DNA of 64,000 nucleotides from Bryoerythrophyllum caledonicum. Lineage: Eukaryota > Streptophyta > Bryopsida > Pottiales > Pottiaceae. The stretch is from contig OZ020517.1 of NCBI GenBank assembly GCA_963971425.1, positions 5,272,501-5,336,500 of the forward strand, in the 5' to 3' direction. The position numbers were made by a program, and so were the translations under genes. The notes below the pieces were generated by a model that ran no database searches, was not told where the DNA came from, and was given only the letters and a program-made list of their open reading frames with translations. Shown here in pieces: positions 24,309-61,723 of the stretch (its first letter is position 1; each line of letters opens with the position of its first letter).

Positions 24309-25943
24309 ATGTCCATTACGAAAATGAACCTTAGATTCGAGGAAAGCATGGATATTGATGAAGGGGGGACAAGTGAAACAATAAATTGGAGAGAGAAAGG
24401 AATAAGAAAGAACATAGAAATGGAAAATGGCAATACCAAGAAGAGCAGGAGCACTCAAGAAGAGGTAAGCCAACCCCCTCCTCTTAACGTAATGACCATG
24501 CCTCTCAAGTTTTGGCTAGGATATGAAGACATGGAACGCCTTGCAATCGAAGAAGGGCTAGAAGAGCTCTTATATGATGAGAAGGTGGAAGACATGGTGA
24601 CTAGAGGATTCTAGGAGCATGAAGCTAAGGAGTTCAAGATGTCAAAGGTGGCCTATCCAAGAATACCCCAACTTTACTACCCTATTGCAAGGATGGGGAG
24701 CGAGGAGCAACACTACAACATCACCCAGATTCCCCAACACACCAAAATCAATGGTGCCACAGGTTTGGCTAACGGTTTCCACATGGCTATCCACTTTGAA
24801 CCTCCTCCCTCCATTTTATTGCATGATGATGTCCATAAAATGATAATCCATAGACTTGAAGTTATGAACATTAAACTAGGGGAAGGAGTTATGGACCCTA
24901 TCTATATCCATTGTCATAGTGTTAAGAGAGGTGGGCAAAAGGGGGTTTGGACCGGCATGTTCAAGTTACACTTATTTAACCCCGAAATCGATGCTCTCAT
25001 GTTGTTAAAAGGAATTAGGCCTTTCATACTAACCATAAACAACCAAAACACCGTAGGAAAAATATGTAAAGTCTATCCCCAAATCGCTAACTCTTCTAAC
25101 CTCTCCGTGCAAGTGCGAAGTGATACATTGATAGGTATTTCCGCCCATCATCTCTTCAAGGACATCCTCACCAATAGCTTCAAGCGTGGCCATGATTACG
25201 AGATCACGGGAGTATCCAAGGTAGAAAGAGATCCCTACGCCTTCATTGCCGCCACCACCCCCACACAAGCTTCCAAGATCCAACTTCAACACATCACGAC
25301 CCACCACGAGGTTATCAAAGCAATGAAGACCTATAACGGCAGACGCATGACTCCCGAAACAAAGGCAAGGAAAGATGCTATCTCCCTCACCCTCTCCCCT
25401 TTACCTCTTCTCATGAATGTGCAAGATGTCACTAATGCTATCCAAAGAATCATGGGAGTAAATAATGTTAAGGCAATATGGTTTCATAAAGAAATTGGGG
25501 GAAGGCACAATGGCAAGGCTAATGTGGAATGTGCTAACCCCATAGTATACAAGCAATTCGTTAGAAAACACTTCGACATTGGTGACAATTATGTGGACTT
25601 CTCCCCACATTTGAAGAGCTTGGAAGGCACACAACCCCCCACGGAGGAGCAAATCAATGCCTTTGGTTTCAATGACATCAATGCCGCTATAGTCAACACC
25701 GTTGCAACTTTCAAAATACAAGACACCCCGACGGCCATCACCAAAAAGGAGTTGAAAGAAGCCTTGGAGGAGAACAACAAATAGGTGATAGAAGAAAGCA
25801 AGAGGTACACCGACGTCCTCCACAACTCTTTGATGGAGCATCTAGACAAAATGGAGGAAGCCATGAATGCCACAAGGCTTGCATTCCAAGCCATGAAAGG
25901 AAGAATACCACCTAGACTTGAAGATAGGCCGCCAAACATGTAA
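24309..25943 (+). pseudogene. Copy A ORF1 (RNA-binding/chaperone-like protein), two in-frame TAG
   Basis: ORF1 of LINEs coats the element RNA. The frame runs 544 codons from ATG 24,309 to TAA 25,941-25,943, broken by TAG at 24,612 and TAG at 25,782. Conserved with copies B and C are FWLGYEDMERLAI, YPRIPQL, HYNITQIP, HMAIHFE, LMLLKGIRPFIL and GKICK. A C-terminal segment (about 25,376-25,620: ISLTLSPLP, NAIQRIMG, VKAIWFHKE, KANVECANPIVYKQF, NYVDFSPH) suggests a beta-alpha-beta RRM-like fold. After the second stop, VIEESKRYTDVL and similar text continues a helical, coiled-coil-like tail also seen in B. There is no CCHC knuckle. The RRM assignment is inference. Confidence 0.75.
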
Positions 25944-26953
25944 GGACCAAAGACCTCAAGGTAATACATAATTACCAATTAGTATCTACTACCCTTCACA
26001 TACCATACTATACACTAGAAAAATACATCTACCTTGCTCGTACAATATACATAGTAGACCTCACATACCTCCAAAATACATACAAACAATGTACGATTTT
26101 TTATACAAATATAAAATACATATTACACTACGAGTATACTTACATAATACCGAACTACTACCAAACATATATTAAATACTACGCCATTCATCCAAAATAC
26201 AAATACTACATAAACCATCATACCGACTACACCAAATATGAATACCAAATAATACACACAAAAAACTATACAACTACACACACACAAACATACGAACATA
26301 AACACAACCTCAAAACACATACCCACACAAATACACCAAAAGCCTCATACATAAACACACCAAGAATCACATACACAAATACACAAACAAAGAAGAAAAA
26401 AAAGGGAAAAAAAACACACAAAAAAAAATATGCAATAAAACATACACATACAGATACTTATACCCAAATACACGCACACATACACCTATACACAAAACAC
26501 CAAAAAAACAAACAAATACAAACAAAAAGTCGCACCATAATACAAAACTACACAAAATCACAAACACACACGAAAACAACACAAAAATGCAAACGCAAAT
26601 TAAAAAAAAACAAAAAACATACAAATATACAAAACACACGCAACAAAAACAATATTATTACCATAATCACAAGGAAAAACACAATCCTACACAATAACAA
26701 TGTAATAAAATCTAAAACACTAAAAACCCATTATATAACCAATATCCCTACATTCGCCATAACTACGAATACAAAAATAATAAACCTCCCGAACAAAGAC
26801 GAATACAAACTCCCAAAAAAATACAACTCCAAGCCCACAAGAAAACACCAAAAAACAACACAAAAAACAAGAACTCTAAAACACATCACCAATCCCAAAC
26901 ACATAAAACTACTACTACTTCTAAGCGGAGACATAGAAACCAACCCGGGTCCC
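25928..26953 (+). CDS. Copy A open A+C-rich linker leading into 2A, no ATG
   Basis: In the frame of the following 2A motif there is no stop for about 340 codons, from the TAG at 25,925 through to ORF2. There is also no ATG until the one directly after the 2A. The encoded text is dominated by T, H, K, N, Y, I and Q, turning basic near the end (RKHQKTTQKTRTLKH) before a leucine run. The frame overlaps the last 16 bases of ORF1 in a different phase, so it could be entered by frameshifting or reinitiation. G is nearly absent from the strand, which makes stops rare and weakens the argument from openness. Copies B and C have comparable but broken linkers. Confidence 0.5.
26912..26953 (+). other. 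2A-like ribosome-skipping motif, copy A
   Basis: The codons read LLLLSGDIETNPGP, followed directly by M-P-N of ORF2. This matches the 2A/CHYSEL consensus D-(V/I)-E-x-N-P-G-P with an upstream hydrophobic leucine stretch and glycine. During translation such motifs make the ribosome skip the Gly-Pro bond, releasing the upstream product and continuing with Pro. 2A motifs at the N-terminus of ORF2 are known in trypanosome L1Tc and several animal LINEs. Confidence 0.85.
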
Positions 26954-29900
26954 ATGCCTAATATACTAAAAAGACACCCTACAATACATAAGAAAAATGC
27001 CAAAATTTACTTCATATCGAATACCATAAAGTTCCAACCGGAATATAATCACATTACAAAATCCTTCGCACCTCTCCTCAAAAACACACATACATTACAT
27101 ACCCAAACATCGCCCAATACATACAACAAAAAAATATGCACCCACCACCCCACATACTATATGCCCTAGTAGTCACCACTCACCCACAAATAGATGAATG
27201 CAACCACCTCCTAAATCCACAAAACTTAAACACAATCACATGGACCAATACACTTCTACAAACTTTACTAAGCCTACAAAACCCACCGGAACGACACATT
27301 CACATTGAACACCCGTATACAAAGTTTCTTGAAGACAACCAACATATTATAAATCATAGAAACTCAATACATAAAGAAATATATGATTTTTTACACAGTC
27401 AAACCACTCCTCCCTCAAATGAAGCAATAAAACAAAAATTCTCTTACCTCCCTAATAACCTCATTAATGAACTACCAAAAAGTTTAGACCCTGTACCAGA
27501 ATACACCCGCCCGCCACTGCCACTCCCCTACATCCCTCCACAAAATCAAAACATTAGAACAAACCAAGAAAATCCATACATAATCACATGGAACGCCTCC
27601 TCCCTAAATACTGCCTTACCTAGCTTACAAACTTTGGTCACGCACTCAACCACGCCACCAGCCATCATAGTTATACAAGAAACAAAATTATCCGCCACAA
27701 AATCTACAAAATATATACAAAATATATTTCAAGACTATAAACTCATCTTTAACAACACACATGCACTTACAAGATGCATCCAACTACGGAGACCATACAT
27801 GCCGGGCCGAGGTGGCCTCTTTACACTAATACACAAAAAATACGCCTTCCCGGGCAACATCAACAAAATTCCTACTCCAATGCACATATCACCTTACATT
27901 CAAATAATCAGAATTACTAACCACCCACTACAACCATGGCTAATCTTTCACATGTATATGCCATCACACCCAGAAGATACTAGATTTATCATAGATATAC
28001 AAAATACTATTACATCTCAAATTAATAATAACCCCAATCACACATACCTATTATGCGGAGACTTCAACAGATACATAGCACTAATTGGCCGCCAAAATGG
28101 AAATCATAACACCCCCCCTCTAAACATTGATTACCAATGGCGCCGCTTCACAGAAAACCTCAACTTCAGATACATCAATACTGATACACAATTCTCTAGA
28201 CAAGGTGGCTACAATTACAGTGACTGGAGCCTTATAGATGGATTCTATATAAATACAAACAACAATATACAATAAACCTCCACTACAAACAAAGATGATA
28301 TCCTAAACTCGGACCACTTACCTATACAATTACAGATTCCAAACAATACATTAATCAATAGAACTCCGACAACACCAAACAATGACACTATATGCATACT
28401 CAACCCTATACCAAAAGACAATCTAGAAAATTTCTACATAAAATTCTTTGAAGAAAATTCCATACAAATAGACTCCCTCACAAACACTCTTGAAAATAAT
28501 AGTCAACTATCACAAATACAATGGCACGAAGCATACCACACCATAGACAAACTTATTAATAAAATCTCTGACACTTTAGAACAAACTTGTAAAGCCCACC
28601 CATTACCTCAAATGACTAACAAAACTTCCCAACAAGGAGGATATTTACCTCGAAAACTCTCCAAAACTTGGAAACAACACCTAACTACATACCATGTTAT
28701 ACGGAAAACCATTAGAATTGTAAAAAATAACCCTCAATGGCGTAGCCACCCTGTATGTGATGAACTACTAAACCTACAACACACCCAAATTCCTACCCCA
28801 CCACCTTCGGACCTACCCCACGACTCATGGATAAAAGATATCGCACTAATCGCAAAAAATGCCAACATTCAAGCCCGAAAAATAACCTCAAAATACAGCA
28901 AAGATAACATTAAGAAAGCCATCTCAAAATACAGACAACTATACGAAATTAGCCCCAAAAAAATCAATAGGAAAGTCTTCAAAAATCTTGAATCTCCACC
29001 AATGGATTGTATCAAAGATCAATTCAACAATATTCTAACTGGTCCAGAAGACATTGCGAATGAAAGATTCAACCAACAAACAAAAAGCAACAGACCAACA
29101 GTACCAACATGTAAATACCAACCACAACACCCAATTGAATGTACATGTACAGTACGCCAATACCCATGGCATGACCTCGATGGATTTACCCTTGACAAGC
29201 GAGGAAAACCAGAAATGCCATTACATAAATACTTTAACATTGCCACATACGACACATGTCTCCGTAATCTTGGTAACAACAAAGCCCCAGGCCCAGATCG
29301 TATACCAAACTCAATACTAAAAAACATGCCCTTAAGATTCCACAAATTACTATTCCTATTCTTCTCACACTGCTATAAACAAAAACAAATACCAACGTCA
29401 TGGAAATCAAGTACAACAATTCTACTATACAAAAAAGGAGATCCATTTATACTTCCCAACCATAGACCAATTGCACTAGCTAACACAATATATAAATTCT
29501 TCACCAGTACACTCACCTCTATACTATCCTCATACGGTGAAAATTTCAAAATCCTACACGACAGCCAAGAAGGATTTAGAGCAGAAAGAAGTACCGCTAG
29601 ACAAATACAAACTATAATAGCCGTACTAGAAGATGCAAGATTTACAAATCAAGGCATATACATACTATACGTCGACTTCAAAAACGCCTTTGGCTCAATA
29701 GACCATGCCCGACTACTAGCAATAATGATGGACCTTGGTTACCCAAAAGATGCAACTACACTTGTTGGAAACATCTATTCTTAATCATCTACTTGTTATA
29801 CCGGTGAACACTTTGGGAAAACAAAACCTATATCCATCCAAAGAGGAACTACACAAGGGGATACCCTTAGCCCATACCTATTCATTATATTCTTAGAACC

Positions 29901-31409
29901 ACTACTCAGATGGCTAGAACGAGGCAACAATAGATACACTTTTGGCACATCACAAGTCACAATAAATTCTGTCGCATACGCAGATGACCTCGCCGCCATA
30001 ACTAACAAAATCAAATCTATCCAAATACAACTCAACAAAATTGATAGATATTGCAAATGGACCGGAATGGACGTAGGTGTCCCAAAATGTGCCGCTACCA
30101 GATGCCCAAACAAATCCAAAATAAACCCTACCACTTTCAAAGCCCTAATGCTAGCTTCCAACATCAATTACTGCAATCAACCGATCCCCATACTACACCA
30201 AAATGAACCATACATATACTTAGGTACAAATCTTGTTCCATCACTAAAATGGAAAATCCAAATCCACACCACAACGACGAAACTCATCAAACAATGCAAT
30301 GAACTAACAACATGCCCGGCTACCATGAAAGAAAAAATAAAAATGATTGATACCGTACTACGCCCAGGTGTGGCATACAGTTTCTACGGTGTACCATACT
30401 CTATGCCAGCTATCAAAAAATTGGATAAAAAAATGATAGCCATACAAAAAACCATATGTGGATTACCAAAATGCATGTCAAATGCAATAACCCAACTCCC
30501 ACATAACCTATTTGGGCTTGAAGCTTTCTCCCTCAAAAACGCATACCTCCGTTGTATAGGAGAACAACTACAAAATGCCTTAAATGATAAAGGTAGACTT
30601 GGAAAAATATATAATGGACTAACTCATTATGTCATTGCCCAATATGGCGGCGCCGAAAACGTACCCAGAATTAAAACAAGTGACTGCATAAGATCACCGA
30701 TAACAAGAACATTCTTTTTATTAAAACACATAGGTAAAATTCACCTTAAAAGTACACTCCCAAACTTCCTCACTAATCCTACACCACTAGAAATAGTATG
30801 GCGCCAAGAAACACTAAATCACAACACACTCAATGCCCATCTCTCCCGAAAACTTCTACAAAAACTCCTCTCAAAAAATATCTTTGACCTAAACCAAATT
30901 ACTTTACCTGATGGCACACACATCATGAACAATGAGGATTTTAAAACCCACCACTTCACCCCATCCAAATTAGTAAAAAGTGCTCTAAACATTCCTTAAC
31001 AACTTTTTTGCCACCCAACATGTCCCACCACATGTCAGACGCCATGTATCATACATCCATACTCCTATATTCTTCAAGATTCATACATCACCATCAACAA
31101 CAACACCACTCCAAGAAATATTCCCCTACCAATCTACCCACCTAACCCCGCACATCCATACCACCCCCATCCCCCAATATACATCTCCAAAAACCCTAGC
31201 ACATATCCCATTAATAGCATCATACACCATAAACACATCCAGCACAAGGACACAAACAATATACAAAATACCTACACAAAATACCTATGCCAATGGCAAC
31301 ACAACGATAATACATACAACAAATGGCTTCCCCAAAGAGCCCTTTTCCCACGACACGACACCAATACCTCCACACACAACATTGAAAAATTAAAACAATA
31401 CTACCAAAA
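26954..31409 (+). pseudogene. Copy A ORF2, first part: APE endonuclease and reverse transcriptase
   Basis: The frame starts MPNILKRHP after the 2A and shifts once at an A7 tract near 27,120-27,136. It then stays in one phase with TAA at 28,273, 29,782 and 30,997. APE endonuclease motifs: ITWNASS (27,574), IQETK (27,673), GDFN (about 28,057) and SDH (28,309-28,317). Reverse transcriptase motifs: NKAPGPD (29,278), YVDFKNAF (motif A, 29,668), QGDTLSPYLF (motif B, 29,853) and YADDLA (motif C, 29,977-29,994). The APE nicks target DNA and the RT copies the RNA from the nick. The coding strand is very poor in G. The TAA at 29,782 is shared with copy B. The frame is cut at 31,409 by the insertion of copy B. 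Confidence 0.9.
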
Positions 31410-31421
31410 AACTCAGAACAA
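31410..31421. repeat. Target-site duplication of copy B, left
   Basis: AACTCAGAACAA matches 43,499-43,510 (AACTCAAAACAA) at 11 of 12 bases. Copy A ORF2 continues across the two sites. Confidence 0.85.
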
Positions 31422-31604
31422 GAAGAAGAAGAACGCCGGTCCCCTAGGGAGCCGGCGTGAATAAAGCGTCTGTTCGTTCCACTACTAAGACCATACCCAC
31501 CGGATAAGGAATTAGTAAGCTAGAACTACTTCCCCCTCTCGAGGGTAGACACTATGTAACAAGTACCACAAACCACAAACCAGAGAAATGAGTAAAAGGT
31601 AGTT
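31422..31604 (-). other. Copy B 3' UTR with stem-loop and TTC tail
   Basis: In the element sense the end reads TTTATTCACGCCGGCTCCC, then TAGGGGACCGGCG, then four TTC-like units. CGCCGG(C/T) and CCGGCG arms form a hairpin (about 31,434-31,456). The preceding words GTGGAACGAA and ACATAGTGTCTACCCTCGAG are shared with copy A. This is the likely recognition structure for the element's own reverse transcriptase. Confidence 0.8.
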
Positions 31605-34600
31605 TTATGGGGGGTCTTGCATATCAGGAAGGGCTTGGTTGTTTTCAATTTTGCGTTTATGTAGAAGTATGGACATAGCGTGTTGTATGGCAATGATGTT
31701 GATATTCTTGAAAGTGTTTGTGACTGTATTAATAGGAATTTTGAAGATATCGTCTAGGGTTTTCATAGATGGGATAAAGGTGGTGGCGCGAGCGCCGGCT
31801 GTGATTACCATAAGGGGGTCCATTTTCTAGCCAAGGGCAATGATGTCATCTATAAGGGGTTGGTATTTATTGATTTTTTTTTCGATTGTTACAGGGGAAA
31901 ATCTATCATTACAATATGTAAATTCGATGAATTGAATGGTATAGTTTTGGTTTATGTGGTCGGGTGGGGGGTCATTGTATGGAAGGCCTCTAACGCATAG
32001 TATGTCTGGTTTGAGTCGAGCATTGCAGTGACATCGTTGGGTTTCACATGTACATGGGAGTAGCGATGGTGGGACCGTATTTTCTTGTGGGTTGTTGTTA
32101 TAGGTGCCGACATTCATGAGGATAAAACATCTCGATTTGCTATGGGAGGTGATTAATTTACGGAGTTCCCATACGGCTTTGTTGTGTCTTTTGACAATTA
32201 GAGAGTGTATGTGGTGGTTATGACATTTAAGTAAAACATGTAGCCATGTATCGGGATCCGTGGATGTGCATATTGAACATGTTATGGATGGAAATCTTTC
32301 TATTCCAAAGAAGAGTTGTTTTTGGGCGTTTCCCATGTATTGTCCGGTACGGAATTTAATAAGGCATGTTATTTGTGAGTCAGTGATGATTGGATTTTCC
32401 CAGAAGTTTGTGGAGAGTTCATTGTCTATGTTGTTGTTGTTAGTCCATTTTTCTATGTTAGGGAAATTATCTGAGATTGTGTCAAGGTTATTGTGTAGGT
32501 CTTGTTTTTGAAGGTATTTGTTCAAAAATCTAACCGGGCCATTATCGGGGGTGTCTTCTTTGGAGGGCCAGTCTTCTTTTTGGAAGTAGTATGGGATGGC
32601 GTGGGCATGCTCGTGTGGATCTTTGGCATTTTTGTGTCCTTTTTCCTGGCCCTCTTTTGCAAGTTTATCCGCTTGTTCGTTACCATCAATATCAGCGTGA
32701 GCTCAAATTTTGTGGATGGTTGTGATTTGTCTTCGTTTAAGTATCATTTGGACCATAGATTTTAGTATGATTTGGTCGGGGTGGCTATTGTGGAGGGTAG
32801 GGTGTGTTATTTGGGTGTTTAGTAAGTATAGTGTGTTAATGCAGTCTGTGAAAATGTGTGTTGGTTCATTGTTGTATTTTGTTGTAACAATCTCCAGTGT
32901 TTTGTGGATGGCCATGAGTTCTGCTCTAAGGATATTTTGTAGACCATGCAGTCATTTGGCTAATTTGATTTCTTTCGTAGGATTATATATTCCATAACCG
33001 GATTTTCTCTACGCCAATTACCAGGACTTATCTGTTCTGGTGGTTTGAAGGAGCCATCGGTATTGTAGCTATATGCGGGGTCAAATTTTGGTGCGGTGGT
33101 AGTTTGGTAGTCCGGGAGGGGTGGAAGTGGTAAAATGTGATCTAATGTGTTGTTAATGTAGTTTAGTTTTGACCATTTTTTGCTTCTATTGACTAATGTT
33201 TGTATAGGTATTGGTGGGGCTATCTTTGTATGTAGCCGGTTTATGTTAAGTGTTTTTGCTATGGAGGTGAGTTCGGCAAGTTGATCTAGGGTGCCAAGGA
33301 GTTGGTTTTGGTGGTGGACGCATATTATTTGTAGTGTAGATGGTTCAATTCTGGACTTTTTTAGCTCGGGTGGGATAGTAGGTTCTTCGTAATAAATTGA
33401 GTCTGCTTCAAATGTTGCAAGGATGTGGGAGTCTGCAATTGGGCTTGACTGAGGGTTAGAGTTTTGGTACCAATTTTTGTCTGGCGTGATAATGAGTGTA
33501 GATGTGTGTTGTGGATTGTTTTTAGCAGCGAGGAGGGCCCAGTGTAGTGCTTGTTGAGTTTCTTCTTCATTGTGAGGGTGAGCTATACCATTTCCGACCC
33601 ATTTATAGTCAAAGGATTTTCCCAAGGAGCCAAATATTTTATCTCTTTCAAAAGGTGAGTAGAATTTTTTTTAATTTGGTGGAACATGTGACGGGAGAAG
33701 AGAAGTATGATTGTTCGATGTTAAAGGATGAGATTAGTGAGTCTAGAATAGGTGTAGGTATTGTGTATTGTGCATTTTTGAGGGGGTTATTTTTTGGAAT
33801 GCGGTATTTATATCTTTGGTATAGCCTAATTAATTCGGTTTCAAATGATTGGGTGGTTGGTTCAATGTTTGTAGGAGTTTTTAGTTTCATATTGTATTGA
33901 TTCCATAGCCATTGGAGTCTAGTAGTGGGGATAGTGTGTAAATGTCAGCCATTTGCTTCATATAGATGGGCTTGATTGTTCTCTATTTTGATTGTGTTCG
34001 AGGTTGTGGTAATATCGTTTTCGGGGTTGCATTCCATTGTATAGATGTTAAGGAGTGGAATGATTATAGGTGGAATTACGGATCTTGAGTCTTGTAATTG
34101 TTCTTGGGGGTGGTGTGCTTGAATGATTTCCAAGTAGAATTTATCTTTGATTTTTTGATAGTATTGTTTTAACTTTACGGTGTTGAATGTGGAGGTATTA
34201 TAGTCGTGTCTTGGAAAAAGGTTTCTTTGAGGAAGCCATTTGTTGAATGTATTGTTGTTGTGTTGCCATTGGCAAAGGTATTTTGTATAGGTATTTTGTA
34301 TTCTATTGGAATCTTTTTGTTGTATGCGTTCGTGGCGTATGATGTTATTAATAGGGTATGTGGTGGGATTTTTGGTGATGTATGTTGGGGGGCGGGGGTG
34401 GTATGGGTATGAGGGGTTGGGAGGATGGATTGGTGGTAGGGTAGTTCTTGGGAGGATGTTGTTGTTGATGGTGATGAATGGGTCTTGGAATACGTAGGAG
34501 TGTGGGTGTATGTTACAAGGGGTATCACATGTAGTTGGGCATGTTGGATGGCAAAAAAGTTGTTTGGCAACATTTAGGGAACTCTTGATTAGTTAGGATG

Positions 34601-37600
34601 GGGAGCAGTGGAAGGTTTTGAAGTCCTCGTTATTCATGATGTGTGTGCCGTTTGGTAGAGTGATTTGCTTTAGTTCAAATATATTTTTTGAGAGGAGTTT
34701 TTGTAAAAGTTTTTGGGAGAGTTGGGCGTTGAGTGTTTTATGGTTGCGTGTTTCTTGACGCCATACTACTTCTAATGATGTTTGATCAGAGAGGAAATTT
34801 GGGAGAATACTTTTAAGGTGGACTTTAGCTTCGTTTTTTAATAAGAATAATGTACGAGTTATAGGTGATCTGATACAATCCGTTTTTTTAATTCTAGGTA
34901 TATTTTTGGCACCACCATATTGAGCAAGAACGTATTGTGTTAGTCCATTATATATTTTTCCAAGTCTACCTTTGTCATTTAGAGCATTTTGTAATTGTTC
35001 CCCGATGCATCTTAGATAGGCATTTTTTAGGGAGAAAGCTTCAAGTCCGAATAGATTATGTGGGAGTTGGGTTATTGCATTTGACATGCATTTTGGCATA
35101 CCACAGATGGTTTTTTGTATGGCTATAATTTTTTGGTCAAGTTTTTTAATGGCTGGCATAGAGTATGGTACAGCGTAAAAGCTGTATGCTACACCTGGGC
35201 GTATTACGGTGTCAACCATTTTAATTTTTTGTTTCATAGTGGCCGGGCATGTTATTAATTCTTTGCATTGTTTAATGAGTTTTGTGGTTGTAGTGTGGAT
35301 TTGGATTTTCCATTTTAGAGAGGGAACTAGATTTGTGCCTAGGTAGACATATGCTTCGTTTTGGTGTAGTATGGGGATTGGTTGACCCCGGTAGTTGATG
35401 TTAGAAGATTGCATTAGGGCTTTAAATGTGGTTGGGTTCATTTTGGATTTGTTAGGACATCCTGTAGCCGCGCATTTTGGGACGCCTACGTCTATACCAG
35501 TCCATTTACAGTATTTGTCAATTTTATCGATTTGTGTTTGTAATGATTTTATTTTGTTAGTTATAGTAGCAAGGTCATCAGCATAGGCGGCGGAGTTTAT
35601 GGTGATTTGTAATGTGCCAAAGGTGTATCCATTATTACCTCGCTCTAGCCATCTAAGTAGTGGTTCTAAAAATATAATGAATAGGTATGGACTAAGGGTG
35701 TCTCCTTGTATAGTGCCTCTATGAATAGGGATGGGTTTAGTTTGACCAAAGTGCTCACCGATGTAGTAAGTAGATGATTAGGAGTAGATATTTCCAACTA
35801 GTTCAGTTGCATCTTTTGGGTATCCAATATTAGTCATTATTGCTAATAATCTGGCGTGGTCTATAGAGCCAAAGGCGTTTTTGAAGCCAACATATAAGAC
35901 ATATATGTCTTGATTTGTGAATCATGCGTCTTCTAGTGCCGCTATTATAGTTTGTATTTGTCTCGAGGTGCTTCTCTCTAATCTAAATCCCTCTTGACTA
36001 TCGTGTAGGATTTTAAATTTTTCACCATATGAAGATAATATTGAGGTAAGTGTACTGGTGTAGAGTTTATATATTGTATTGGCTAATGCTATTGATCTAT
36101 GATTTGGTAATATTGAGGGATCTCCTTTTCTGTATAGTAAAATTGTTGCACTTATTTTCCATGAGGCTGGTATTTGTTTTTGTTTATAGCAATGAGAGAA
36201 AAATAGAAATAGTAATTTATTAAATCTTGGGGGCATGTTTTTGAGTATTGAATTCGGTATATGGTTTGGCCCTGGGGCTTTGTTATTTTCGAGGTTGCGG
36301 AGACATGTGTCATATATGGCTCTATTGAAGTATGTGTGTAATGGAGTTTCCGGTTCACCTTGTTTGTCTAAGGTAAATCCATCTAGGTCATGCCATGGGT
36401 ATTGGCGTACTGCGCATGTGCATGTGATAAGTTGTTGTGGTTGGTAGTTGCATGTTGGTACTGTGGGTCTATTATTTTTTGTCTGTTGGTTGAATATTTC
36501 GTTTGCAATATCTTCCGGGCTAGTTAGAATGTTATTATATTGGTCAGTGATACAATCTAGTGGTGCAGATTCTAGTTTTTTAAAAACTTTTCTGTTTATT
36601 TTTTTAGGACTAGTTTTGTATAGTTGTCTGTATTTTGAGATGGCTTTTTTAATGTTATCTTTGGAGTATTTTGTAGTTACTTTCCGGGGTTGTATATGGC
36701 ATTTTTTGCGATTAGTGCAATGTCATTAATCCATGTATCGTGGGGTAGGTCCGGGGGGAGTGGGGCAGGTTTAGTAATTTGGTACATATGGGATGATTAC
36801 GCCATTGTGGGTTATTTTTTACGATTCTAATAGTTTTTCGTATTATATGGTATGTGGTTATGTGTTGTTTCCATGTTTTGGACAGTTTGCGGGGTAGATA
36901 GCCGCCTTGTAGTGATGATCTGTTTGTCATTTGTGGTGTTGGTTGGGCATTGCAAGTTTGTTCCAATGTATTGGAGATGTTGTTTATAAGTGTATCTAGG
37001 GTGTGACACGTTTCGTGCGATTGTGTTGGAGAGAGTTGGTTGTTATATTCAAGGGTGTTAATGAGAGAGTCTATTTGTATGGAGTTTTTTTCAAAGAACT
37101 TTGTGTTGAATTTTTCTAAGTTATCTTTTGGGATGGGGTTTAGTATTCGGATAGTATCTTTGTTTGTAATTATTGGGGTGCGATTAATTAGTATGTTGTT
37201 TGGGATGTGAAGTTGTATAGGCGAGTGATCCGAGTTTAGAGTAATATCTTTGTGTGTTGTTGAGGTGTATTGTGTAGCGTTGTTTGTATTTATGTAAAAG
37301 CCATCTATTAGGCTCCAGTCACTGTAGTTGTATCCGCCTTGTCTAGAGTATTGTGTATCAGTATTTATGTATGTAAAGTTTAAGTTTTCTGTGAAGTGGC
37401 GCCATTGGTAGTCTGTGGTTTGAGGAGGGGTGGTGTGGTTTCCGTTTTGTCGACCAATTAGGGCTATGTCTCTGTTGAAGTCTCCACACAACAAGTAGGT
37501 ATGATTAGGGTTTTGATTTAATTGGTATGTAATGGTGTTTTGTATATCTATAATAAATCTAATATCTTCGGGATGGGAGGGCATATATATGCGGAAGATT

Positions 37601-38633
37601 AACCATGCTTGTAGTGGTTGATTAGTAATTTTAATTATTTGGAGGTAGGGAGATATGTGCATTGGGGTAGAGATTTTTTTGATGTTGCCCGGAAAAGCAT
37701 ATTTCTCGTGTGTTAGTGTAAGGAGGCCACCGCGGCCCGGTGTGTATGGTCTACGTTGTTGGATGCACCTTGTTAGTGCATGTGTGTTGTTAAAAATAAG
37801 TTTGTAGTCTTGAAATATGTTTTGTATGTATTTTGTAGATTTTGTGGCCGATATTTTTGTTTCTTGTATAGCTATGATGGTCGGTGGCGTGTTTGTATGT
37901 GTGACCAAGGCTTGTAAACTAGGGAGAGCAGTGTTTAGAGATGAAGCATTCCATGTGATTATGTTTGTGTTTCCGTTGTTTGACCTAATATTTTGGTTTT
38001 GCGGAGGAAGGTTATTATGGTTTTGTGGGGGGAGGTAAGAGGGTGGGGGGGGGGTGGATGGGTGTATTCTGGTATGGGGTTGAAACATTTTAGTGACTCA
38101 TTAATAAGGTTGTTAGGAAGGTAAGGGAATTTTTGTTTTATTATGTTGTTTGAGGGGGTTACGGTTTGACTGTGTAAAAAGTTGTATAATTCTTTATGTA
38201 TTGAATTTTCGTGGTTTATGATACTTAGGTTATCTTCAAGAAATTTTGTATAAGGGTGTGTGGTGTGTATATGTCTTTCGGGTGGGTTTTGTATGTTTGA
38301 TAGGGTTTGTAATAATGTGTTAGTCCATATAAGTATATTCGGATTTTGTAAATTTAGAAGGCGGTTACATTCGTCTATGTTTGGGTGGGTGGTAATTACT
38401 AGGGCGTAGAAAATATGTGTTGATGGGTGTGTATTTTTTTTTTGAATATATTGGGCAATATTTGGATGTGTTGTGTTGTGTAATTGATGTGATATATGTG
38501 TGGTTTTTAAAAGGGGTGAAAATGTCTGAGCGATATGTTTGTATTCCGGTTGTAGTTTTATGGTATTTGGTATGAAGTACATTTTGGCGTTTTTCTTATG
38601 TGTTGTGGGATGTCGTTTTAGTACATTAGGCAT
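31605..38633 (-). pseudogene. Copy B ORF2: APE, RT, RNase H, CCHC, restriction-like nuclease
   Basis: This is the full replication protein, with domains in order on the minus strand. The N-terminal MPNVLKRHP region is followed by APE endonuclease (IITWNASSLNT, IQETK, GDFNRDIALIGR, SLIDGFYIN and SDHSPIQL, about 37,985-37,205). Then come RT (NKAPGP, LHDSQEGFR, QGDTLSPYLF, and YADDL at 35,571-35,588), RNase H (YNTDGSFK, HIFTDC, HANIDGNEQADKLAK, about 33,080-32,640), a CCHC finger (CSICTSTDPDTWLHVLLKC) and a C-terminal KPDIL...IEFTY...KYQPL domain (about 32,012-31,760). Breaks include a slip at a C10 tract near 38,045, a frameshift near 36,770, TAA at 35,778-35,780 shared with A, TAA near 34,593 and a TGG-to-TAG change near 31,828. 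The protein is non-functional as read. Confidence 0.88.
31760..32025 (-). other. Copy B PD-(D/E)XK restriction-like endonuclease-like domain
   Basis: LKPDILCV, IQFIEFTYCND, KINKYQPL and MVITAGARATT follow the CCHC finger in the order seen in restriction-like endonucleases of R2/NeSL/Dualen LINEs (PD, acidic residue, K...KY). The distance between PD and the acidic residue is longer than I would expect. The assignment is by motif only. Confidence 0.6.
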
Positions 38634-38675
38634 GGGTCCCGGATTAGCTTCTATATCTCCACATAGTAGTAATAG
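38634..38675 (-). other. 2A-like ribosome-skipping motif, copy B
   Basis: The minus-strand codons read LLLLCGDIEANPGP, followed by MPNVLKR of ORF2 in the same frame. All consensus 2A residues (D-I-E-x-N-P-G-P) are present. The upstream frame is open for about 57 further codons, ending in a basic, tyrosine-containing lead (KPSYYKI). Confidence 0.88.
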
Positions 38676-39915
38676 GATTTTATAGTATGACGGTTTAGTG
38701 AGTTGTTTTTGGTTTATTGGTTTGTCTATATATTTTAGGTGTTTTCTTATTATTTTTTTGTTTTTGATTTTAGTGTTTTTATTTATGTATGTGTGTGTGT
38801 TTTTGTACGTGTAGTAGTTTTTTTTACTCTGTTTTTTCTCGTGATTCTAAATGTTATCCTTGGATGCGTATTTTGTATGGTGTTTGTGTGGGCTTGTTTA
38901 TAATTTTTTAGGTGTGTTTTTGTATGTGTCTTTGCGGTTTTTTGTGAGTGGGTTTTTGTTTGTGAGTGTGGGTGTGTGAGTGTGTGTCTGTGTATATGTG
39001 TGTATATATTATGTATGTTTTCTAGCTTAAGTGTGTGTATTTGGTTGTATGGGTGTGTTTTTGTATATGTATGTTTGTGTGTATTTGTGGTTTCGTTTTG
39101 TGTGTTTTTATGTTTGTGCAAGTGTGCAGGCGTTTGCGTGTTTGTCTTGATGTGTTTGTGTGTGTGTATGTATGTGAGTGTGTGTGCAATTATTTTGATT
39201 TTTTGAGGTGAGTTTGTATTGGTGATAGTTTTTTTGTTTGTGTTTTTGGGAGGTGTTTGTAAGCGGTGACATGTAATGTAGTAGGTGTTTCTATTAGTTG
39301 AAGGTGTGTGTGGGAGTAGGGCTAGTTTGTTGTGTGTGGGTGTATTGGGTGTATTTGTGATGTAGAAATGTGGTAAGGGTGTATGAGTGTTGAGTGTGTG
39401 TATTTCATATGAGTTTTCCCAAGAAATATTCATACCGTAATGGTATATGCAATGACAATGTTTATATATATGTGGAGTGAAACCTCAAAACCAGTACATG
39501 TATCTACCATGTGGTCTCCAAGTCATGCATTTGATTGTAGGTATGTTGTAGCAAAAGTAGAGAGTATGTCTAGAGTATGAGGTGACTAGTGAGGGTGGTG
39601 TAGAGACTATGGTAATGCTAGAGTATATTTTAACTATATTAGTGAAATGATATAACATTAGTAAGGGCAAAGAGAGGGATAGGAGACTTTGGAAGTTTAT
39701 ATCTAGCTCTAGTGGTTTGGGGGGTACTGATGTAGTGACTGTGAGAGTACTAACTAGTATATTGTAGTAAGGGAGAGAGAGCATACTAGAGGAGATATTA
39801 TCTTCAGTGAATAGAGGGGTGATCGAAGAGAGTTGTAGAGATTGGAGGGGAGGGGTGCTAACCTTGTCCATCCATGTGGTGCCATATTGGTGATATCTTC
39901 GGCTGGGGTCCTCGG
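38634..39915 (-). other. Copy B linker between ORF1 and 2A
   Basis: A 216-codon open frame (39,433-38,783), very rich in T, H, K and N, overlaps a second phase that is open from 38,846 through the 2A. A single one-base shift would join them. This corresponds to the A+C-rich linker of copy A. No domain is recognisable. The sequence could be a spacer, and openness is favoured by the near absence of G in the sense strand. Confidence 0.4.
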
Positions 39916-41558
39916 TCAATCCACGTTTGAGTGGTCTTCTAAGGCTGGGATAGTTGGTGACCGCGATCCTGTAATTTGTTGCATTGCCATCAGTGCGGAG
40001 GTCATCAGCTGCTCAACGTTTGAGAGCTTTGCCTGTAACTCACTGGTGCGGTTATCGGTGTAGGCCTTTGTGTCCTTGATGATGTCCTCTCTGAGGGTGG
40101 AGAGCTCCTGCCGCAGTCTCTTGTTACCTGCATCTATAATGGAGGTCATTTCTGATCTTGTGATACTTGCAGGAGCTGGGGAAGCTTGGAGGGACGCCAC
40201 GGTGTTTACGAGGGCATTGTTGATGTCATTAAAACCCCACTTCTCCAACAATTCGGTGGTGGGTGGATCATCACCTTCGAGGCTACGTCGGTGGGGAGAA
40301 ATCTCCACTTGATGTCGCCCTATATTGAATGTCTTGTGTAGAAATTGGCGGTAGATGATGGGATTAGGGAATTGCACATTGGCACTTCCATTATGCATTC
40401 CTCTCTGTTGCCTGTGGAACCATAGGGAGATGACATTCTTGGCCTCAAAGGATTGATGAATAGCTGTCGTGGTTTCTGCCACGCTCATAAGGATTGGGAG
40501 TTGGGAGACGGTGACTGTCAATGCGTCCTTCTTGGCTCTATCAGCTGGAGAGAGGCCTCCAGAACCACTAGCACGCGCTGGTATCACCTCATGGTGTGTG
40601 GTAATTTGGTGGAGCTCAAATTTCTAGCCTGTTGAGGGGTTGGGGCAACGATAAAGGCGTGTGAATCCTCTTGTACCTTCTGCACATCTATATTCTCGAA
40701 TTCCAAGTTTCTCGAGAAACTATTTGTCACCACGTCCTGGAAGAGGGTGTGGGTAGTCACACCTTTGAGGAATTCACTCTTAATTCTCACTGATAAATTC
40801 TTCCGTGCTACTGCATGGAAGGTTTTGCATACTTTCCCTAAGGAGGCCTGTCCTATGGGGTCTAGGTGTAGGATGAAGTATCTAGTGCCACGAAGGAGGG
40901 CAATAGCATCTACCTCTGGCCTAAGAAGATGTAATTTGATAGTGCCTGACCATATACCCTTTTGTCCCTCTCTTTTGACCCCTTTACATAGAACGGCCAT
41001 GGGGTCCATTAGGTTAGTGCCTAATGGTATTTTCATGTGTTCGAGCCTAGCTAGGGCTAGTCTCTTCACATTATCATGGTACATAGGGTGTGGTGGCAAT
41101 TCAAAGTGAATTGCCACATGGAAATCATAGGAGAGTCCATTGATAGGGTGTGTAGGGATATCAAAGGGTACCTGTGTGAGGTTATAGTGTTGGCCCTCAA
41201 TGTTGTCGTTGCGTACTGAAGAATATAGAAGTTGTGGGATCCTAGGAAAGGCCACCACTGCGCCGAGGGACTCCTCTGCTTCTTTTTTTGGTACTCCACG
41301 AATAATCATATCTCTAACGCTCTCTCCACTAAATAGGGGCTCCTGTCCCGCATCGATGGCAAGCTTTTCCATAGTGGAGAAGCCCAACCAAAAACGAAAT
41401 GAAGAGTTGTCAGGGATGGAGACCTGGATGGGGGTGGGATAATTACCTCTAGCTTTTTTGGATGGGGTTGGACCTCCATTTGCCATTGAGACTGATGCTT
41501 CAATCTCCAAGTGCTTCATAACTCTTGGGTTGGGGTGTTCGGTGTCCATGGCGTCCAT
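39916..41558 (-). pseudogene. Copy B ORF1, one frameshift
   Basis: ORF1 starts MDAMDTEHPNPRVMKHLEIE at 41,558 and reads to TGA at 40,584. It resumes one base out of phase at 40,587 and closes at 39,916. The break falls where copy A reads ITTHHEVI: the same residues are recovered in the next phase, so a one-base deletion near 40,600 explains it. Conserved blocks include FWLGFSTMEKLAI, FPRIPQLLY, HYNLTQVP, HVAIHFELP and GKVCKTFHAV. The second piece holds LTVTVSQLPILM, ISLWFHRQ and VEISPHRRSLEG (RRM-like arrangement), then RLRQELSTLREDI...LSNVEQLMTSAL, a clear coiled-coil pattern. It probably forms multimers on the element RNA. The function is inferred from LINE ORF1 proteins. Confidence 0.78.
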
Positions 41559-43498
41559 TATGGGTGGGGTCGTTGGTTTGGGGACTACCTGGTGGAGGGC
41601 TCTTGGCCTGGAGTTGTTGGGCTAAGGGGAGTCAAGGGTTGAGGTAGGTCGATAGTGTTTAGGAAGGTTACTAGTTGGGCTTGGGGAGGGTTGATGGGGG
41701 GAGGGAGGTCGCTGCCTACCTCTGGAGGGTAGTTGTCTTTGGTAGTAGGTCGCAAGTTGGTGGAGGGGTCGCAAGTTGGCTGGAGGGTGTCGCAAGTTGG
41801 TTGGAGGGGGTCGTAAAACGGCTAGGTCGGGTCGCTCTTGGGGAGGTCGTCACCTTGGGAGGTCGCAAACCCTCCTGTGTGGGTCGCTGGACTTCCTGTG
41901 AGGGTTGCTATTTCGGTCGGCTTCGGCCTTTGACTGTCGCGCTTTCCCTTCGAAGTCCCTCGGTCGTCTGCCTTCATGTGAATCTCTTGTGGGTGCCTTA
42001 GAGTCTCTCGGTCGGTCCGCTTGCGTCTTGAATTCTCCGCTGACCTTCTGGTCTTCATGTTCCGCTGTCCTCCTGGTCTTCCTGTTCTTTTTGCTTATGT
42101 ATTGTTGTCGTCCTGCTTTTCCTGCTGCTTGATGAGTCGTTGTTCTTTCTGTTCTTCCTGGTTGATGGTGTGGTCGTTGTCTTCTTGGTTGTTGTTGTTA
42201 TTGGTCGATGTCCTCCTATTGACGTCGGAGTCTGTCTGGGTGTCGGGAGCTTCGTCGCAGTAGTAATCAATTGATGGCGTCGGAGTCTGTCTGGGTGTCG
42301 GGGGCTTCGTCGCAGTAGTAATTAGTTGATGTGACAGGGCTCTGGTGTTTCTGGTATTTAGGGTCTCTGTCTAAGTCTGTACCGAGTATGGTCCAAGTGA
42401 AGTCTGTATCGAGGTGAACCTTCCGCCTCAAATTTTGATCGCTGGTCTGCGTGATCCTGAGTCGGTGTGTTTGATCCAGAATCGCTGATAATGGGTGCGG
42501 TCGTCGGGATCTCCGTGTGCTGTGAGTCTAGATGTCTAAGTCTAAGATCCTGTTGGTCTCCGATTATGTCCTTCTATTGTGTCCCTAAGAGCTTCGTTTC
42601 TACAGATTGGAGAGTCCAGATGGAGGTGCAGTGCTACTCCACACTCGGCCACTGGTGTTGGTTCAAGTTTGAAGGGTTGACTTGTGCACTTGTAGCGTCT
42701 TCTGTGCCTACAAGATTCTAGAAAAAATGCGCAGCGCTTCCGCGCTCTACTGTAGAGGTGGAGATTTCTATGTGAGTGCACAGGGTTATTGTGATCTAGG
42801 GTTAGGTTTTGGTTAGGTTGTGACTATCACTGCTGGTGTTCTATGTGACATGTATCAAGAGAAAGATTGTAAGACAAAGTGCGTAGGCTAGTGGTGTGAG
42901 CTGCAGATCTAATGCTTTAATCAAAAACTTACAAATGTTGGTGCTTCTCTTGTTGCTCATATACATGGTGTGTACGCTTCTCTGCTGCTGTTGGTGTTGT
43001 TCTTCAAGGTTGTGGGTGCGGTTGCCTAAGCTCCGGGTTGCCAGTGTTGTAGATCTTAGGCTGAGGCGAGTTGTTGCTGTGGTGTAGTCACGTTGGTCTT
43101 GCCTTTCTTGCTATATTGTAAAGATGGATAACTGGGTAGGGGAGGTGTGTCGACTAACAAAGAGGCCTACACATCTGGTATCCAGCATTCAGATCTAGTG
43201 CAGATCTTGTGGTACAAAGTAAGATAGATCTATATGCCAACACTTGCTCCCCGGCTTCTCAGAAAAAACACTCCATAGATCCAACACTCATACGTTCACT
43301 CCTCAAACTCCAGATCTAATGCTTGTGAGCTCTCTCCAACGTGGTCTGCTTCCCAGGCCTCTCTTACTTCTCAGATCTAAGGTGTGTGGGGAGCTCTCAC
43401 CAAGATCAACCACCTCTTGGTGCCCACAACCTTGTGTCTGGAGCTAAGTCTCACCTCCTCTAACTAGAAATTTCGGAGCTCACTCTGTCTTCATCCTT
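41559..43498 (-). promoter_or_regulatory. Copy B 5' UTR with internal repeats
   Basis: It aligns with the 5' UTR of A (GGGAGCAAGTGTTGGC, GTGGGCACCAAGA). It contains a 55-bp tandem duplication (42,221-42,330, GTCGGAGTCTGTCTGGGTGT) and three roughly 20-bp units carrying GTCGCAAGTTGG (41,748-41,822). In the element sense the latter read CCAACTTGCGAC and parallel the GCGACC words in copy A. Open frames here are not conserved between copies. Confidence 0.7.
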
Positions 43499-43510
43499 AA
43501 CTCAAAACAA
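43499..43510. repeat. Target-site duplication of copy B, right
   Basis: AACTCAAAACAA is the right-hand partner of 31,410-31,421. Copy A sequence resumes directly after it. Confidence 0.85.
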
Positions 43511-46023
43511 AATTTACTCGGACATCATTCTAGCCCACCATCCCCAAGAACAATTCCTAGACTCAAGATCCGTGACACCACCCATAATTATTCCACTCTT
43601 AAAAATCCATACATCAGAATGTAATCCCGAAAAAGATATCCTTACATTCTCAAACACAATTAAAATGGATAATAATCAAGCACATCTATATGAAGAAAAT
43701 GGTCGACACTTGCACACTATCCCCGTTACTCGACTCCAATGGCTATGGAACCAATACAATACTAAACTACAAACTCCTACGAACATTGAACCAACGACCC
43801 AATCCTTTGAAACCGAACTAATTTGGCTCTACCAAAGGTATAAATACCGAATACCTAAAAATGACCCCCTCAAAAATGCGCATTACACAATACCCACACC
43901 CATTTTGGACTCACTAATCTCATCTTTTTAACATCGAACAATCATACTTTTCTTCCCTGGTCACATGCTCTACCAACTAAAAAAATTTTACTCACCTTAT
44001 GAAAGAGACAAAATATTCGAATCTTTGGGAAAGGCCTTTGACTACAAATGGACCGGTAAAGGAATAGCTCACCCCCACAACGAGAAAGAAATGGAACAAG
44101 CAATACATTGGGCTCGACTTGCCGCCAAACATTACCCGCATATCACAAGTACAATCATCATCACACCAAACAACAATTGGTACCAAAACAACAACCAACA
44201 CCCAAACCCATTCCCAGACTCCCATATCATTGCAATATTTGAGGCAGACTCAATACCATACGAAGAACCTACGATTCCACCCGAGCTAAAAAAACCCCGA
44301 ATCGAGCCATCCACATTACAAATAATATGTGTCCATCATCAGAACCAAACCATTGGCACCCTAGAGCAACTTGCTGAACTTACCGCCATATCGGACAATT
44401 TAAACATACACAGATTATACACAAAACGGGCCCAACGGACACCTATACAAACCCCCATAAAGTAAAAAATGGTCAAAATGAAACTATGTCAACAATACAC
44501 TAAACTACTTTATCACACCGCCCCCTCCTCCAGATTACCCAAATCATACCACACCAAAATTTAACCCTGCACATAGTTATTACACCGATGGCTCCTTTAA
44601 ACCACCAGAACAAATTAGCCCAGGATCTTGGCGCAGAGAAAAAGCTGGCTATGGCATCTGTAATTCTACCAAGGAAATTAAGCTAGCCAAAAGACTCCAT
44701 GGACTACAAAATATACTAAGAGCAGAAGTCATGGCCATTCACAATACACTACAAATCATCACAACAAAATACAATAATGAACCCGCACATATATTCACTG
44801 ATTGTATAAATGCACTTTACCTACTAAACACTCAAATAACACACCCTACTCTTCACAATAGCCACCCCGACCAAACCATATTAATGTCAATGGTCCAAAT
44901 GTTACAAAACCGAACACAAACCACAACCCTCCACAAAGTAAGAGCCCATGCCAATATTGATGGGAACGAACAAGCGGACAAACTAGCAAAAGAAGGCCGA
45001 GAAAAAACACACAAAAATGCCAAAGACCCACACAAACATGCCAATGCCACCCCATACTACTTTCAAAAAGAAGATACCCCTGACAAAGGTCCAATTAGAT
45101 TTTTGGGCAAATATCTCAAAAAACAAGACCTCTACAACAACCTTGACACAATCTCAGAAAATATTCCTAACATAGAAAAATGGACTAACAATAACGACAT
45201 AGACAATGAACTCTCTACAAATTTTTGGAAAAACCCCATCATCGCCGATTCACAAATAACATGCCTTATCAAATTCCGCACCGGTCAATACATGGGAAAC
45301 GCCCGCAAACAACTCTTCTTTGGAATAGAAAGATTTCCATCCATAACATGCCCCATATGCCCCTCAATGGACCCCGACACATGGCTACATGTTCTACTCA
45401 AATGCCAAAACCACCACATACACTCCCTAAATGTTAAAAGACATAACAAAGCAATATGGGAAGTCCAAAAACTAATCACCTCTCACAATAAATCGAGATG
45501 TTTTATACTAATGAACGCCGGTATTTTTAATAACAATCCACAAGAAAATACGGTCCCCCCGTGGCTACTTCCATGCTCATGTATGACCCAAAGATGTCAT
45601 TGCAACGCTAGGCTCAAACCGGACATCCTTTGTGTTAAAGGTTTACCATATAATGACCCCCCACCCGATAACATCAACCAAAACTATACCATTCAATTCA
45701 TTGAGTTCACATATTGTAACGATAGATTTTCCCCGGAAACAATCCAAAATAAAATAGATAAATACCAACCCCTTATTGACAACATCATTGCCCTCGGATG
45801 GAATGTCGACCCCCTTATTGTAATCACATCCGGCGCTCGTGCCACCACCTTTATCCCATCTATGAAAACTCTAGAAGATACCTTCAAGATACCCATTGAA
45901 ACAATTAAAACCTCCTTTAAAAACATTAACACCATTGCTATTCAATATGCCATGTCCATTCTTCTACATAAACGCAAAATCGAAAACAACCAAGCCCTCT
46001 CCGATACACAGGACCCCCCTTAA
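43511..46023 (+). pseudogene. Copy A ORF2, second part: RNase H, CCHC, restriction-like nuclease
   Basis: This continues ORF2 after the copy B insertion. It reads from the HHPQEQFLDSRS region through RNase H: YYTDGSFK (Asp 44,587), RAEVMAIH (Glu 44,725), HIFTDC (Asp about 44,800) and HANIDGNEQADKLAKEG (about 44,947). Then come the CCHC finger CPICPSMDPDTWLHVLLKC (45,349-45,405), a CSC-x4-CHC cysteine cluster, and the KPDIL...IEFTY...KYQPL domain. RNase H would degrade the RNA template. The last 430 codons (44,731-46,023) are open and end at TAA. Earlier there are stops at 43,929 and near 44,462, with frameshifts in T- and A-runs. Confidence 0.88.
45600..45860 (+). other. Copy A PD-(D/E)XK restriction-like endonuclease-like domain
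   Basis: RLKPDILCV (PD at 45,618-45,623), IQFIEFTYCNDRF (Glu 45,703-45,705), KIDKYQPLIDNI (from 45,751) and DPLIVITSGARATT are conserved in all three copies, although copy C is diverged elsewhere. A CCHC finger precedes it, as in R2-like and Dualen elements. This would be a second DNA-cleaving domain beside the N-terminal APE. It could instead be a decayed or purely DNA-binding fold; structure prediction would decide. Confidence 0.62.
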
Positions 46024-54482: not shown

Positions 54483-54524
54483 CTTCTATTATTATGCAGA
54501 GACATTGAACAAAACCCAAGGCCA
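54483..54524 (+). other. Decayed 2A-like motif, copy C
   Basis: The codons read LLLLCRDIEQNPRP before M-P-N. Aligned with copies A and B, the conserved NPGP has become NPRP and the G before D has become R. Ribosome skipping would be expected to fail. Confidence 0.8.
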
Positions 54525-61529: not shown

Positions 61530-61692
61530 AACCAATCAGAATCGCCATAACATCTTGAAAAACCTCCAATTTTCTTCTATACTTGGTTTATTTTTATTTA
61601 TTCTTTTATTTAATCCTTTGTCTAGTGGGCATCGTTTTAGTAAGTGGAACGAATAGACACTATATTCACGCCGGCCTCCATCTGGATATCGG

Positions 61693-61693: not shown

Positions 61694-61723
<30 letters not shown>

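Follow-up and report, generated by a model that had tools for sequence, protein, structure and literature searches.

The window analysed here is the whole stretch of 64,000 nucleotides, and it carries three copies (A, B and C) of a LINE. The element has the layout ORF1, spacer, 2A motif and ORF2, with ORF2 coding for APE, RT and RNase H domains. The features are as follows, in the order of the forward strand.

24309..25943, forward strand: ORF1 of copy A, with two in-frame stop codons; the ORF is closed by the stop codon at 25941-25943.
25929..25943, forward strand: last codons of copy A ORF1 (CCG CCA AAC ATG TAA); the -1 frame opens here (candidate shift window).
25928..26911, forward strand: spacer of copy A, read in the 2A frame, with 0 stop codons and 0 Met codons.
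26912..26953, forward strand: predicted 2A/StopGo motif of copy A, LLLLSGDIETNPGP, which reads L-L-L-L-S-G-D-I-E-T-N-P-G-P and is followed by MPN.
26954..31421, forward strand: first part of copy A ORF2 (MPN start, APE, RT), with frameshifts and stop codons; it ends at the insertion of copy B.
31422..43498, reverse strand: copy B, about 12.1 kb, inserted in copy A and flanked by AACTCAGAACAA (31410-31421) and AACTCAAAACAA (43499-43510).
31434..31457, reverse strand: 3'-terminal hairpin of copy B (CGCCGG...CCGGCG), followed by a (TTC)n tail.
31827..38633, reverse strand: ORF2 of copy B (MPN start; APE, RT, C-terminal region), with frameshifts.
38634..38675, reverse strand: predicted 2A/StopGo motif of copy B, LLLLCGDIEANPGP, which reads L-L-L-L-C-G-D-I-E-A-N-P-G-P and is followed by MPN.
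38676..39915, reverse strand: spacer of copy B, decayed, with 19 stop codons in the 2A frame and 21 and 8 in the others.
39916..41558, reverse strand: ORF1 of copy B, with one frameshift and the terminal codons CAC TCA AAC GTG GAT TGA.
43499..46023, forward strand: remainder of copy A ORF2 (RNase H and C-terminal region), assigned to copy A via the flanking repeats.
46267..46291, forward strand: 3'-terminal inverted repeat of copy A, of the same type as that of copy B, followed by (TTC)n (identified by eye).
50986..53280, forward strand: ORF1 region of copy C, frameshifted, with the terminal codons GAT TCG TTA AAC TAG (stop codon at 53278-53280).
53268..54482, forward strand: spacer of copy C, read in the 2A frame (-1 to ORF1), with three stop codons (other frames: 35 and 35).
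54483..54524, forward strand: degenerate 2A motif of copy C, LLLLCRDIEQNPRP, which reads L-L-L-L-C-R-D-I-E-Q-N-P-R-P and is followed by MPN.
54525..61529, forward strand: ORF2 of copy C, decayed.

The 12-bp flanks of copy B differ by one mismatch and represent a target-site duplication. A G+C-rich inverted repeat with a (TTC)n tail forms the 3' end of copies A and B, and an eroded form of it is present in copy C (about 61669-61700); this type of terminus is as in stringent-type LINEs. The 5' end of copy B could be aligned with the 5' end of a related genomic copy (L068, see below) only weakly, over 43 columns, and copy B is therefore not called full-length. Scans of the window for tRNAs and Rfam families gave no matches.

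ORF2 domain assignments are above the curated cut-offs: Exo_endo_phos (PF03372) with 26.3 and 30.8 bits, RVT_1 (PF00078) with 36.6 and 52.1 bits, and RNase_H (PF00075) with 46.9 bits. The element is thus an APE-type LINE with APE, RT and RNase H. When the RT was compared with solved structures, R2 chains scored at most 58.6 bits and L1 at most 31.4 bits, scores which do not assign a LINE clade. For ORF1, the AlphaFold2 model is poor (mean pLDDT 40.8) and gives only hints of an RRM-like order of strands and helices (residues 337-421) and of a long helix (467-528). The ORF1 frame is stop-free also upstream of its first Met in the two sequences L031 (reverse strand, 1-639) and L039 (2459-3184), with 0 stop codons in 213 and 242 codons, as compared to 8 and 11 (L031) and 4 and 12 (L039) in the other frames. 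This hints that ORF1 may have a non-AUG start or an N-terminal extension.

The host was assessed by its cox1 gene, which is found in pieces on contigs C267 and C893, in a mitochondrial-type setting; the adjoining reading frames are presumably atp4 and atp8. The first cox1 exon scores 339 bits against chain 7jro, taken to be complex IV of a vascular plant; none of the other 12 chains listed gives more than 277 bits. Its exon borders, as we judge them, resemble those of moss cox1. Weaker cox1 fragments also occur on large contigs such as C2, which suggests that the mitochondrion is that of the host. The initial annotation had placed the LINE in a plant, and both parts of this statement are supported, the LINE by its APE, RT and RNase H domains and the plant-like host by the cox1 match, from which we take the host to be a land plant. 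A second cox1 (L035, C282:8402-9745), with four in-frame TGA codons, lies on a small contig; it probably stems from the mitochondrial DNA of a second organism represented in the assembly.

The motif at the head of ORF2 agrees with the core of 2A/StopGo sequences, (D/G/C/N)(V/I)ExNPGP, in copies A and B; copy C deviates from it (NPRP). An exact D-I-E-x-N-P-G-P with a leucine run in copies A and B, its NPRP counterpart in copy C, and a location directly before the MPN start had been described in the initial annotation, and all of this was confirmed by the sequence (the location applies to copy C, too). As copy C has lost the glycine preceding the skip, its motif is predicted to be inactive. The upstream context is LLLL(S/C/G)G in copies A and B and in the genomic copies L033, L034 and L068, and LLLQSG in L031 and L032. 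An L-rich context with G at p11 is thus present, as compared with PMC12846837 (Li et al. 2026). In the part of that paper which was covered, L-rich upstream classes 2 and 6 are placed before Asp-type cores, and class 6 is active in reticulocyte lysate. Like copies A and B, these classes have LLLL(S/C)G, then Asp at p12 within DIExNPGP. They differ in that the viral classes contrast with a LINE motif that sits in a retroelement of a plant genome.

Chance occurrence of the motif was assessed by 60 dinucleotide-preserving shuffles of the window, each read in six frames: D[VI]ExNPGP was obtained 0 times, and NPGP alone 33 times over all 60. In the 437-Mb, 894-contig host assembly, a degenerate pattern for GDIETNPGP-M-P had 1,320 exact matches (679 forward, 641 reverse), while the reversed control had 0. 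This count covers the Thr version only, so that copy B is not among the 1,320, and elements with two 2A motifs are counted twice. There are 24 nucleotide versions of the peptide among the first 40 of the 1,320 matches listed. Conservation beyond copies A and B, on which the initial annotation had made its proposal depend, is thus found. A search with the N-terminus of copy B resulted in 3,957 first-look candidates; 150 of them were scored, and 150/150 matched; the N-terminus of copy A, used without the 2A, gave 4,470 candidates, of which 150 were scored and matched. The LINE family thus has thousands of candidate copies in the host genome.

Among 15 copies retrieved with the 2A-free query (L053-L067), the full D[VI]ExNPGP is intact in ten. 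The other five have one to three amino acid changes: NPAP in L053, NSGP together with G-to-R before D in L055, NSSP together with D-to-V in L058, E-to-K with NPGP kept in L064, and YPGP in L067. A codon tally was made over 38 rows, which have copy B twice (winB and L001), include copy C and two extra upstream 2A motifs, and omit L032 (identical there to L031). In this tally, D, N and the first P are present in 38/38 rows, the last P in 37/38 and the preceding G in 33/38, with varying codons; the ATG directly after NPGP is kept in 35/38. The flanks are also conserved (KPxxYK upstream, MPNxLKRHP downstream).

Whether the 2A codons are under purifying selection, a check proposed in the initial annotation, was analyzed by pairwise pN/pS, summed over 11 copies chosen for open frames. 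The value is 0.22 for the 2A (21 codons), so that amino acid changes are rare relative to synonymous ones, and 0.19 for the first 170 codons of ORF2. It is 1.06 in the 40 codons that immediately precede the 2A and 0.72 in the spacer, where L033 and L034, hardly alignable in this part, are in the pool. Between copy A and L051, the 2A has a pN of 0.000 and a pS of 0.31 over 21 codons, and the distal spacer has a pN/pS of about 0.93. Distal spacer values are 0.86-1.16 in nine of ten pairs, and the tenth pair is nearly identical. In the copy A lineage, the first 70 codons of ORF2 are weakly constrained (0.62-0.88; five copies, of which copy A and others are frameshifted there). By these values, the 2A is maintained by selection amid otherwise drifting stretches.

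The 2A and ORF2 are in the -1 frame relative to ORF1 in 11/11 stop-free copies (L004, L005, L010, L016, L021, L031, L032, L033 with L039, L051, L052 and window copy A). Ten of these were picked for openness (L004, L005, L010, L016 and L021 as open for at least 370 codons; L031, L032, L033, L051 and L052 as having long open frames listed), while copy A was taken as the window copy. L034 was left out since the end of ORF1 is not in the sequence taken, and the L050 piece carries no 2A. The distances from the ORF1 stop codon to the end of the 2A are 1013, 1049, 1049, 1085, 1259, 1274, 1280, 1280, 1283, 1283 and, in L033, 3776 nt, and all are 2 modulo 3. Between the ORF1 tail and the 2A, the 2A frame has 0 stop codons in 11/11 copies, over 336-1257 codons. 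The other two frames have 6-28 each (6 and 25 in copy A), or 112 and 149 in L033, where about 18-21, or about 100 in L033, are expected from base composition. In the decayed copy C, the 2A frame is also -1 (over 1,247 nt), with the stop codon numbers listed above. In the decayed copy B, the -1 relation is absent and the frame relation is lost. In a less selected set, the 2A frame has the fewest stop codons in 17 of 29 loci (about 10 by chance), with L026 (SRDIETNPGS) outside the 29. In the 15 copies from the 2A-free query, it alone has the fewest in seven, is tied in three and does not have the fewest in five.

The spacer itself is A-rich, mostly G-poor and repetitive, and would code for a variable product rich in Thr, His, Lys and Asn. 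In the L033 lineage, a unit of about 40 residues (NSTKNRICF...KLV.GIN...) is repeated several times in tandem in the ORF2 frame of the long spacer (seen by eye). That a longer unit is translated, with ORF2 as its downstream product, had already been proposed, and this appears to be the case: in the stop-free copies, only the 2A frame of the three is open as far back as the end of ORF1. Four features go beyond the initial annotation, namely the -1 relation to ORF1, the stop-free spacer, a duplicated 2A and a family devoid of ORF1 (see below).

In copies A and C and in L051, L052 and L033, just 10-16 nt (3-5 codons) separate the opening of the -1 frame from the ORF1 stop codon, which confines entry to this stretch; in L031, the distance is about 40 codons. 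The ORF1 tails are CCA AAC ATG TAA (A, L051, L052), CCA AAC TAG (L033), TTA AAC TAG (C) and TCA AAC GTG GAT TGA (L004, L005, L010, L016, L021, L031, B). Thus, the last ORF1 codons of each lineage read contain AAC with a preceding CCA, TCA or TTA, and YA-AAC is common to all. With respect to programmed -1 frameshifting, the frames overlap in the -1 sense in the 11/11 stop-free copies and in copy C, though not in copy B. A canonical slippery heptamer (X XXY YYZ) is absent in every lineage read (G CCA AAC, C TCA AAC and G TTA AAC, each with an unfit first triplet). When the 110 nt downstream were folded for seven sequences, no stable stimulatory structure was obtained (z -1.57 to +0.60, with pseudoknot-free folding).

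At the ORF1 stop codon, there is no AUG in the -1 frame in L004, L005, L010, L016, L021, L031, L033, L051, L052 and window copies A, B and C. An in-frame AUG is located right after the stop codon in L048 and about eight codons further on in L043, L045 and L050. The codon which overlaps the ORF1 stop differs between lineages (TTG, CTA, CTA, GTA). AUGs are not depleted in the spacers of three two-ORF copies (17 in L031 versus 14.0 in shuffles, 46 versus 45.1 in L033, and 3 versus 3.2 in L052), and copy A has no in-frame Met within the spacer upstream of the 2A; scanning to ORF2 appears unlikely on these grounds. In the 5' regions, AUG depletion is clear only in L068 (6 versus 21.2); the counts are 3 versus 8.1 and 3 versus 3.3 in L039, and 0 versus 2.8 in L031. 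Splicing over the ORF1 stop codon was also considered. A GTAAG-like donor is seen in copy A, but not in the same place in L033 or copy C (by eye), and the -1 frame needs no intron.

Two variants of the layout were found. L033 and L034 have a second, upstream 2A with an (M/I)PN flank, which is degenerate (GDMVTNPRP and GDMETNPRP). L080 (C1:6319947 and 6320457) and L081 (C1:44910457 and 44910967) each carry two intact GDIETNPGP-M-P sequences, 170 codons apart in one open frame, and three products are predicted on this basis. The youngest family found is represented by 33 of the 150 scored rows, all with the same score (260.7 bits) and a frame of 3,087 codons; it has no ORF1, and ten sampled pieces of about 600 bp are all identical. 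L068 (L068:2468-5700), of this family, has a 5' end in common with L078 and L079; 380 nt further on begins a frame that is stop-free for 743 codons up to the 2A (0 stop codons versus 20 and 23 in the other frames). The first 476 of these 743 codons are devoid of Met, the first in-frame Met being located 267 codons before the 2A; the part from this Met to the 2A is somewhat depleted in AUGs (6 versus 11.4, lowest shuffle 7). In the L068 family, the 2A has thus outlived ORF1, and what is left is the 2A and ORF2 behind a long frame free of stop codons.

We propose that the motif acts as a functional 2A (StopGo) in this plant LINE family: it would be reached by entry into the -1 frame at the end of ORF1 and reading of the spacer, and would release ORF2. 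We assign this reading a probability of about 0.7. From the observed frame relation, absence of stop codons and AUG counts, together with the motif, we infer a slip, translation of the spacer and skipping. Ribosomes that come to the end of ORF1 would move into the -1 frame within its last codons, the probable step being a -1 slip on the common (C/T)-A-AAC, and the spacer would then be translated as an extension of ORF1. On reaching NPG|P, where skipping is likely, the ribosome would free the chain of ORF1 and extension and continue to ORF2, the protein of which would be made separately and start with Pro-Met-Pro-Asn. A fraction of ORF1 translation would thereby yield free ORF2 protein with no start codon of its own. 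There would then be two serial recoding events per message, a non-classical -1 shift and StopGo release, separated by a runway of 1-4 kb of nearly free sequence; for this specific combination, we consider the chance to be slightly below even. Several observations speak against the proposal. The shared YA-AAC is part of no canonical heptamer, and no stable downstream structure was obtained; ten of the 11 stop-free copies were picked for openness, and the less selected sets are less uniform; copy B is not -1; clear AUG depletion of a 5' region is limited to L068; and the start of ORF2 is weakly constrained in the copy A lineage. In addition, the ORF1-less L068 family cannot use a shift from ORF1, and the conserved ATG after NPGP is also predicted by an internal start.

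The -1 slip is the simplest reading of the entry step, and reinitiation is the next. In that case, termination and reinitiation at the ORF1 stop codon, as reported for the silkworm LINE SART1, would replace the slip, and the 2A would act thereafter. This differs in one step from the proposed course, with overlapping odds, and we consider it rather unlikely, though not far-fetched. The start of the open -1 frame coincides with the ORF1 stop codon, neither a stable structure nor a canonical slip heptamer was found, and some copies of the A lineage have a near in-frame AUG (the four named above). The mechanism is also documented for LINEs in the part of PMC5972666 which was covered. The lack of a -1-frame AUG at the stop codon in 12 named copies, including A, B and C, and a stop-overlapping codon that is not constant argue against it.

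Alternatively, scanning (ordinary or leaky) or an IRES might bring ribosomes to the AUG of ORF2 itself (MPN) or to one in the spacer, and the 2A-like peptide would be a remnant in a leader that is translated marginally or not at all. We regard this as improbable. It would account for the conservation of the ATG after NPGP, for in-frame spacer AUGs in some lineages (seven in L031) and for the in-frame Met of L068, which follows an AUG-poor leader. It does not account for a 2A frame that is open for 336-1257 codons in the stop-free copies, when the other frames have 6-149 stop codons, nor for a constraint on the 2A about equal to that on ORF2. Copy A lacks an in-frame Met before the 2A, and the chance-level AUGs in the three two-ORF spacers would hinder scanning. 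The MPN ATG as the main start was considered unlikely, given the upstream frame that is stop-free in 11 copies and these chance-level AUGs.

A little less probable still is that the motif is conserved merely as protein, as part of an N-terminal domain of ORF2, so that no skipping occurs and ORF1, spacer and ORF2 form one polyprotein. The activity of the motif is a prediction, and its flanks, KPxxYK and MPNxLKRHP, are conserved as well. The conserved residues are, however, the very ones required for StopGo, and they occur in the L-rich context with G of tested active sequences. In addition, the extra upstream 2A is altered in L033, L034 and L068 while the proximal 2A is intact; both are intact in L080 and L081. 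Finally, the low-complexity repeats of the spacer might leave one frame free of stop codons through their composition, with no translation involved. This is very improbable. The spacer is indeed A-rich, mostly G-poor, repetitive and weakly constrained, but the other two frames carry about the expected numbers of stop codons (about 18-100 per frame; 6 and 25 in copy A) and only the 2A frame has none.

StopGo is regarded as viral and rarely cellular, being known mainly from RNA viruses and from elements of animals and trypanosomes. Animal LINEs (Odon 2013) and the trypanosome element L1Tc (Heras et al. 2006) are said to carry a 2A. They resemble the family described here in being APE-type LINEs with D[VI]ExNPGP upstream of or near the APE-RT start. 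They differ in the host, which is a plant here, and in the region before the 2A, where this family has a very long frame free of stop codons, in -1 relation to a separate ORF1. We know of no other host with a LINE strategy of a serial shift and StopGo.

The initial annotation had stated that such motifs are known in LINEs of trypanosomes and animals, and the part of PMC5972666 covered bears this out by naming StopGo in trypanosome and sea urchin LINEs. Its further statement, that a 2A has not been described in a land-plant LINE, fits the literature listed: none was among the papers listed, and no plant LINE is named in the parts covered of PMC8623073 and PMC11512398. While 2A motifs in LINEs are already known, one in a land-plant element, preceded by a long -1 stop-free spacer, is new as far as checked. 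In silkworm SART1 and in mammalian LINE-1, translation of ORF2 is apparently also coupled to the end of ORF1 (PMC5972666, in part). There, the AUG is overlapping or nearby, whereas here ORF2 begins about 1.0-3.8 kb past the ORF1 stop codon, in the -1 frame, after a stop-free spacer and the 2A. Cardioviruses of the Theiler's virus type also have two recoding signals per message, with StopGo near a -1 frameshift site; according to the part of PMC5009743 covered, the viral shift follows StopGo, whereas the presumed shift of the LINE would precede it by about 1-4 kb.

In the part of PMC12846837 covered, no evidence is seen for natural use of StopGo in plant viruses. An echinoderm N-terminal 2A sequence is reported to work in plant cells (PMC4981915, in part). 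If the proposal is true, StopGo would be in natural use in land plants, and a plant family with 1,320 exact matches to the peptide would show that plant ribosomes have met StopGo on a large scale. The family would supply natural, plant-derived 2A sequences and would allow a study of how LINEs set the ratio of ORF1 to ORF2. The long -1 stop-free frame makes the question of how the ORF2 of a LINE is translated directly testable.
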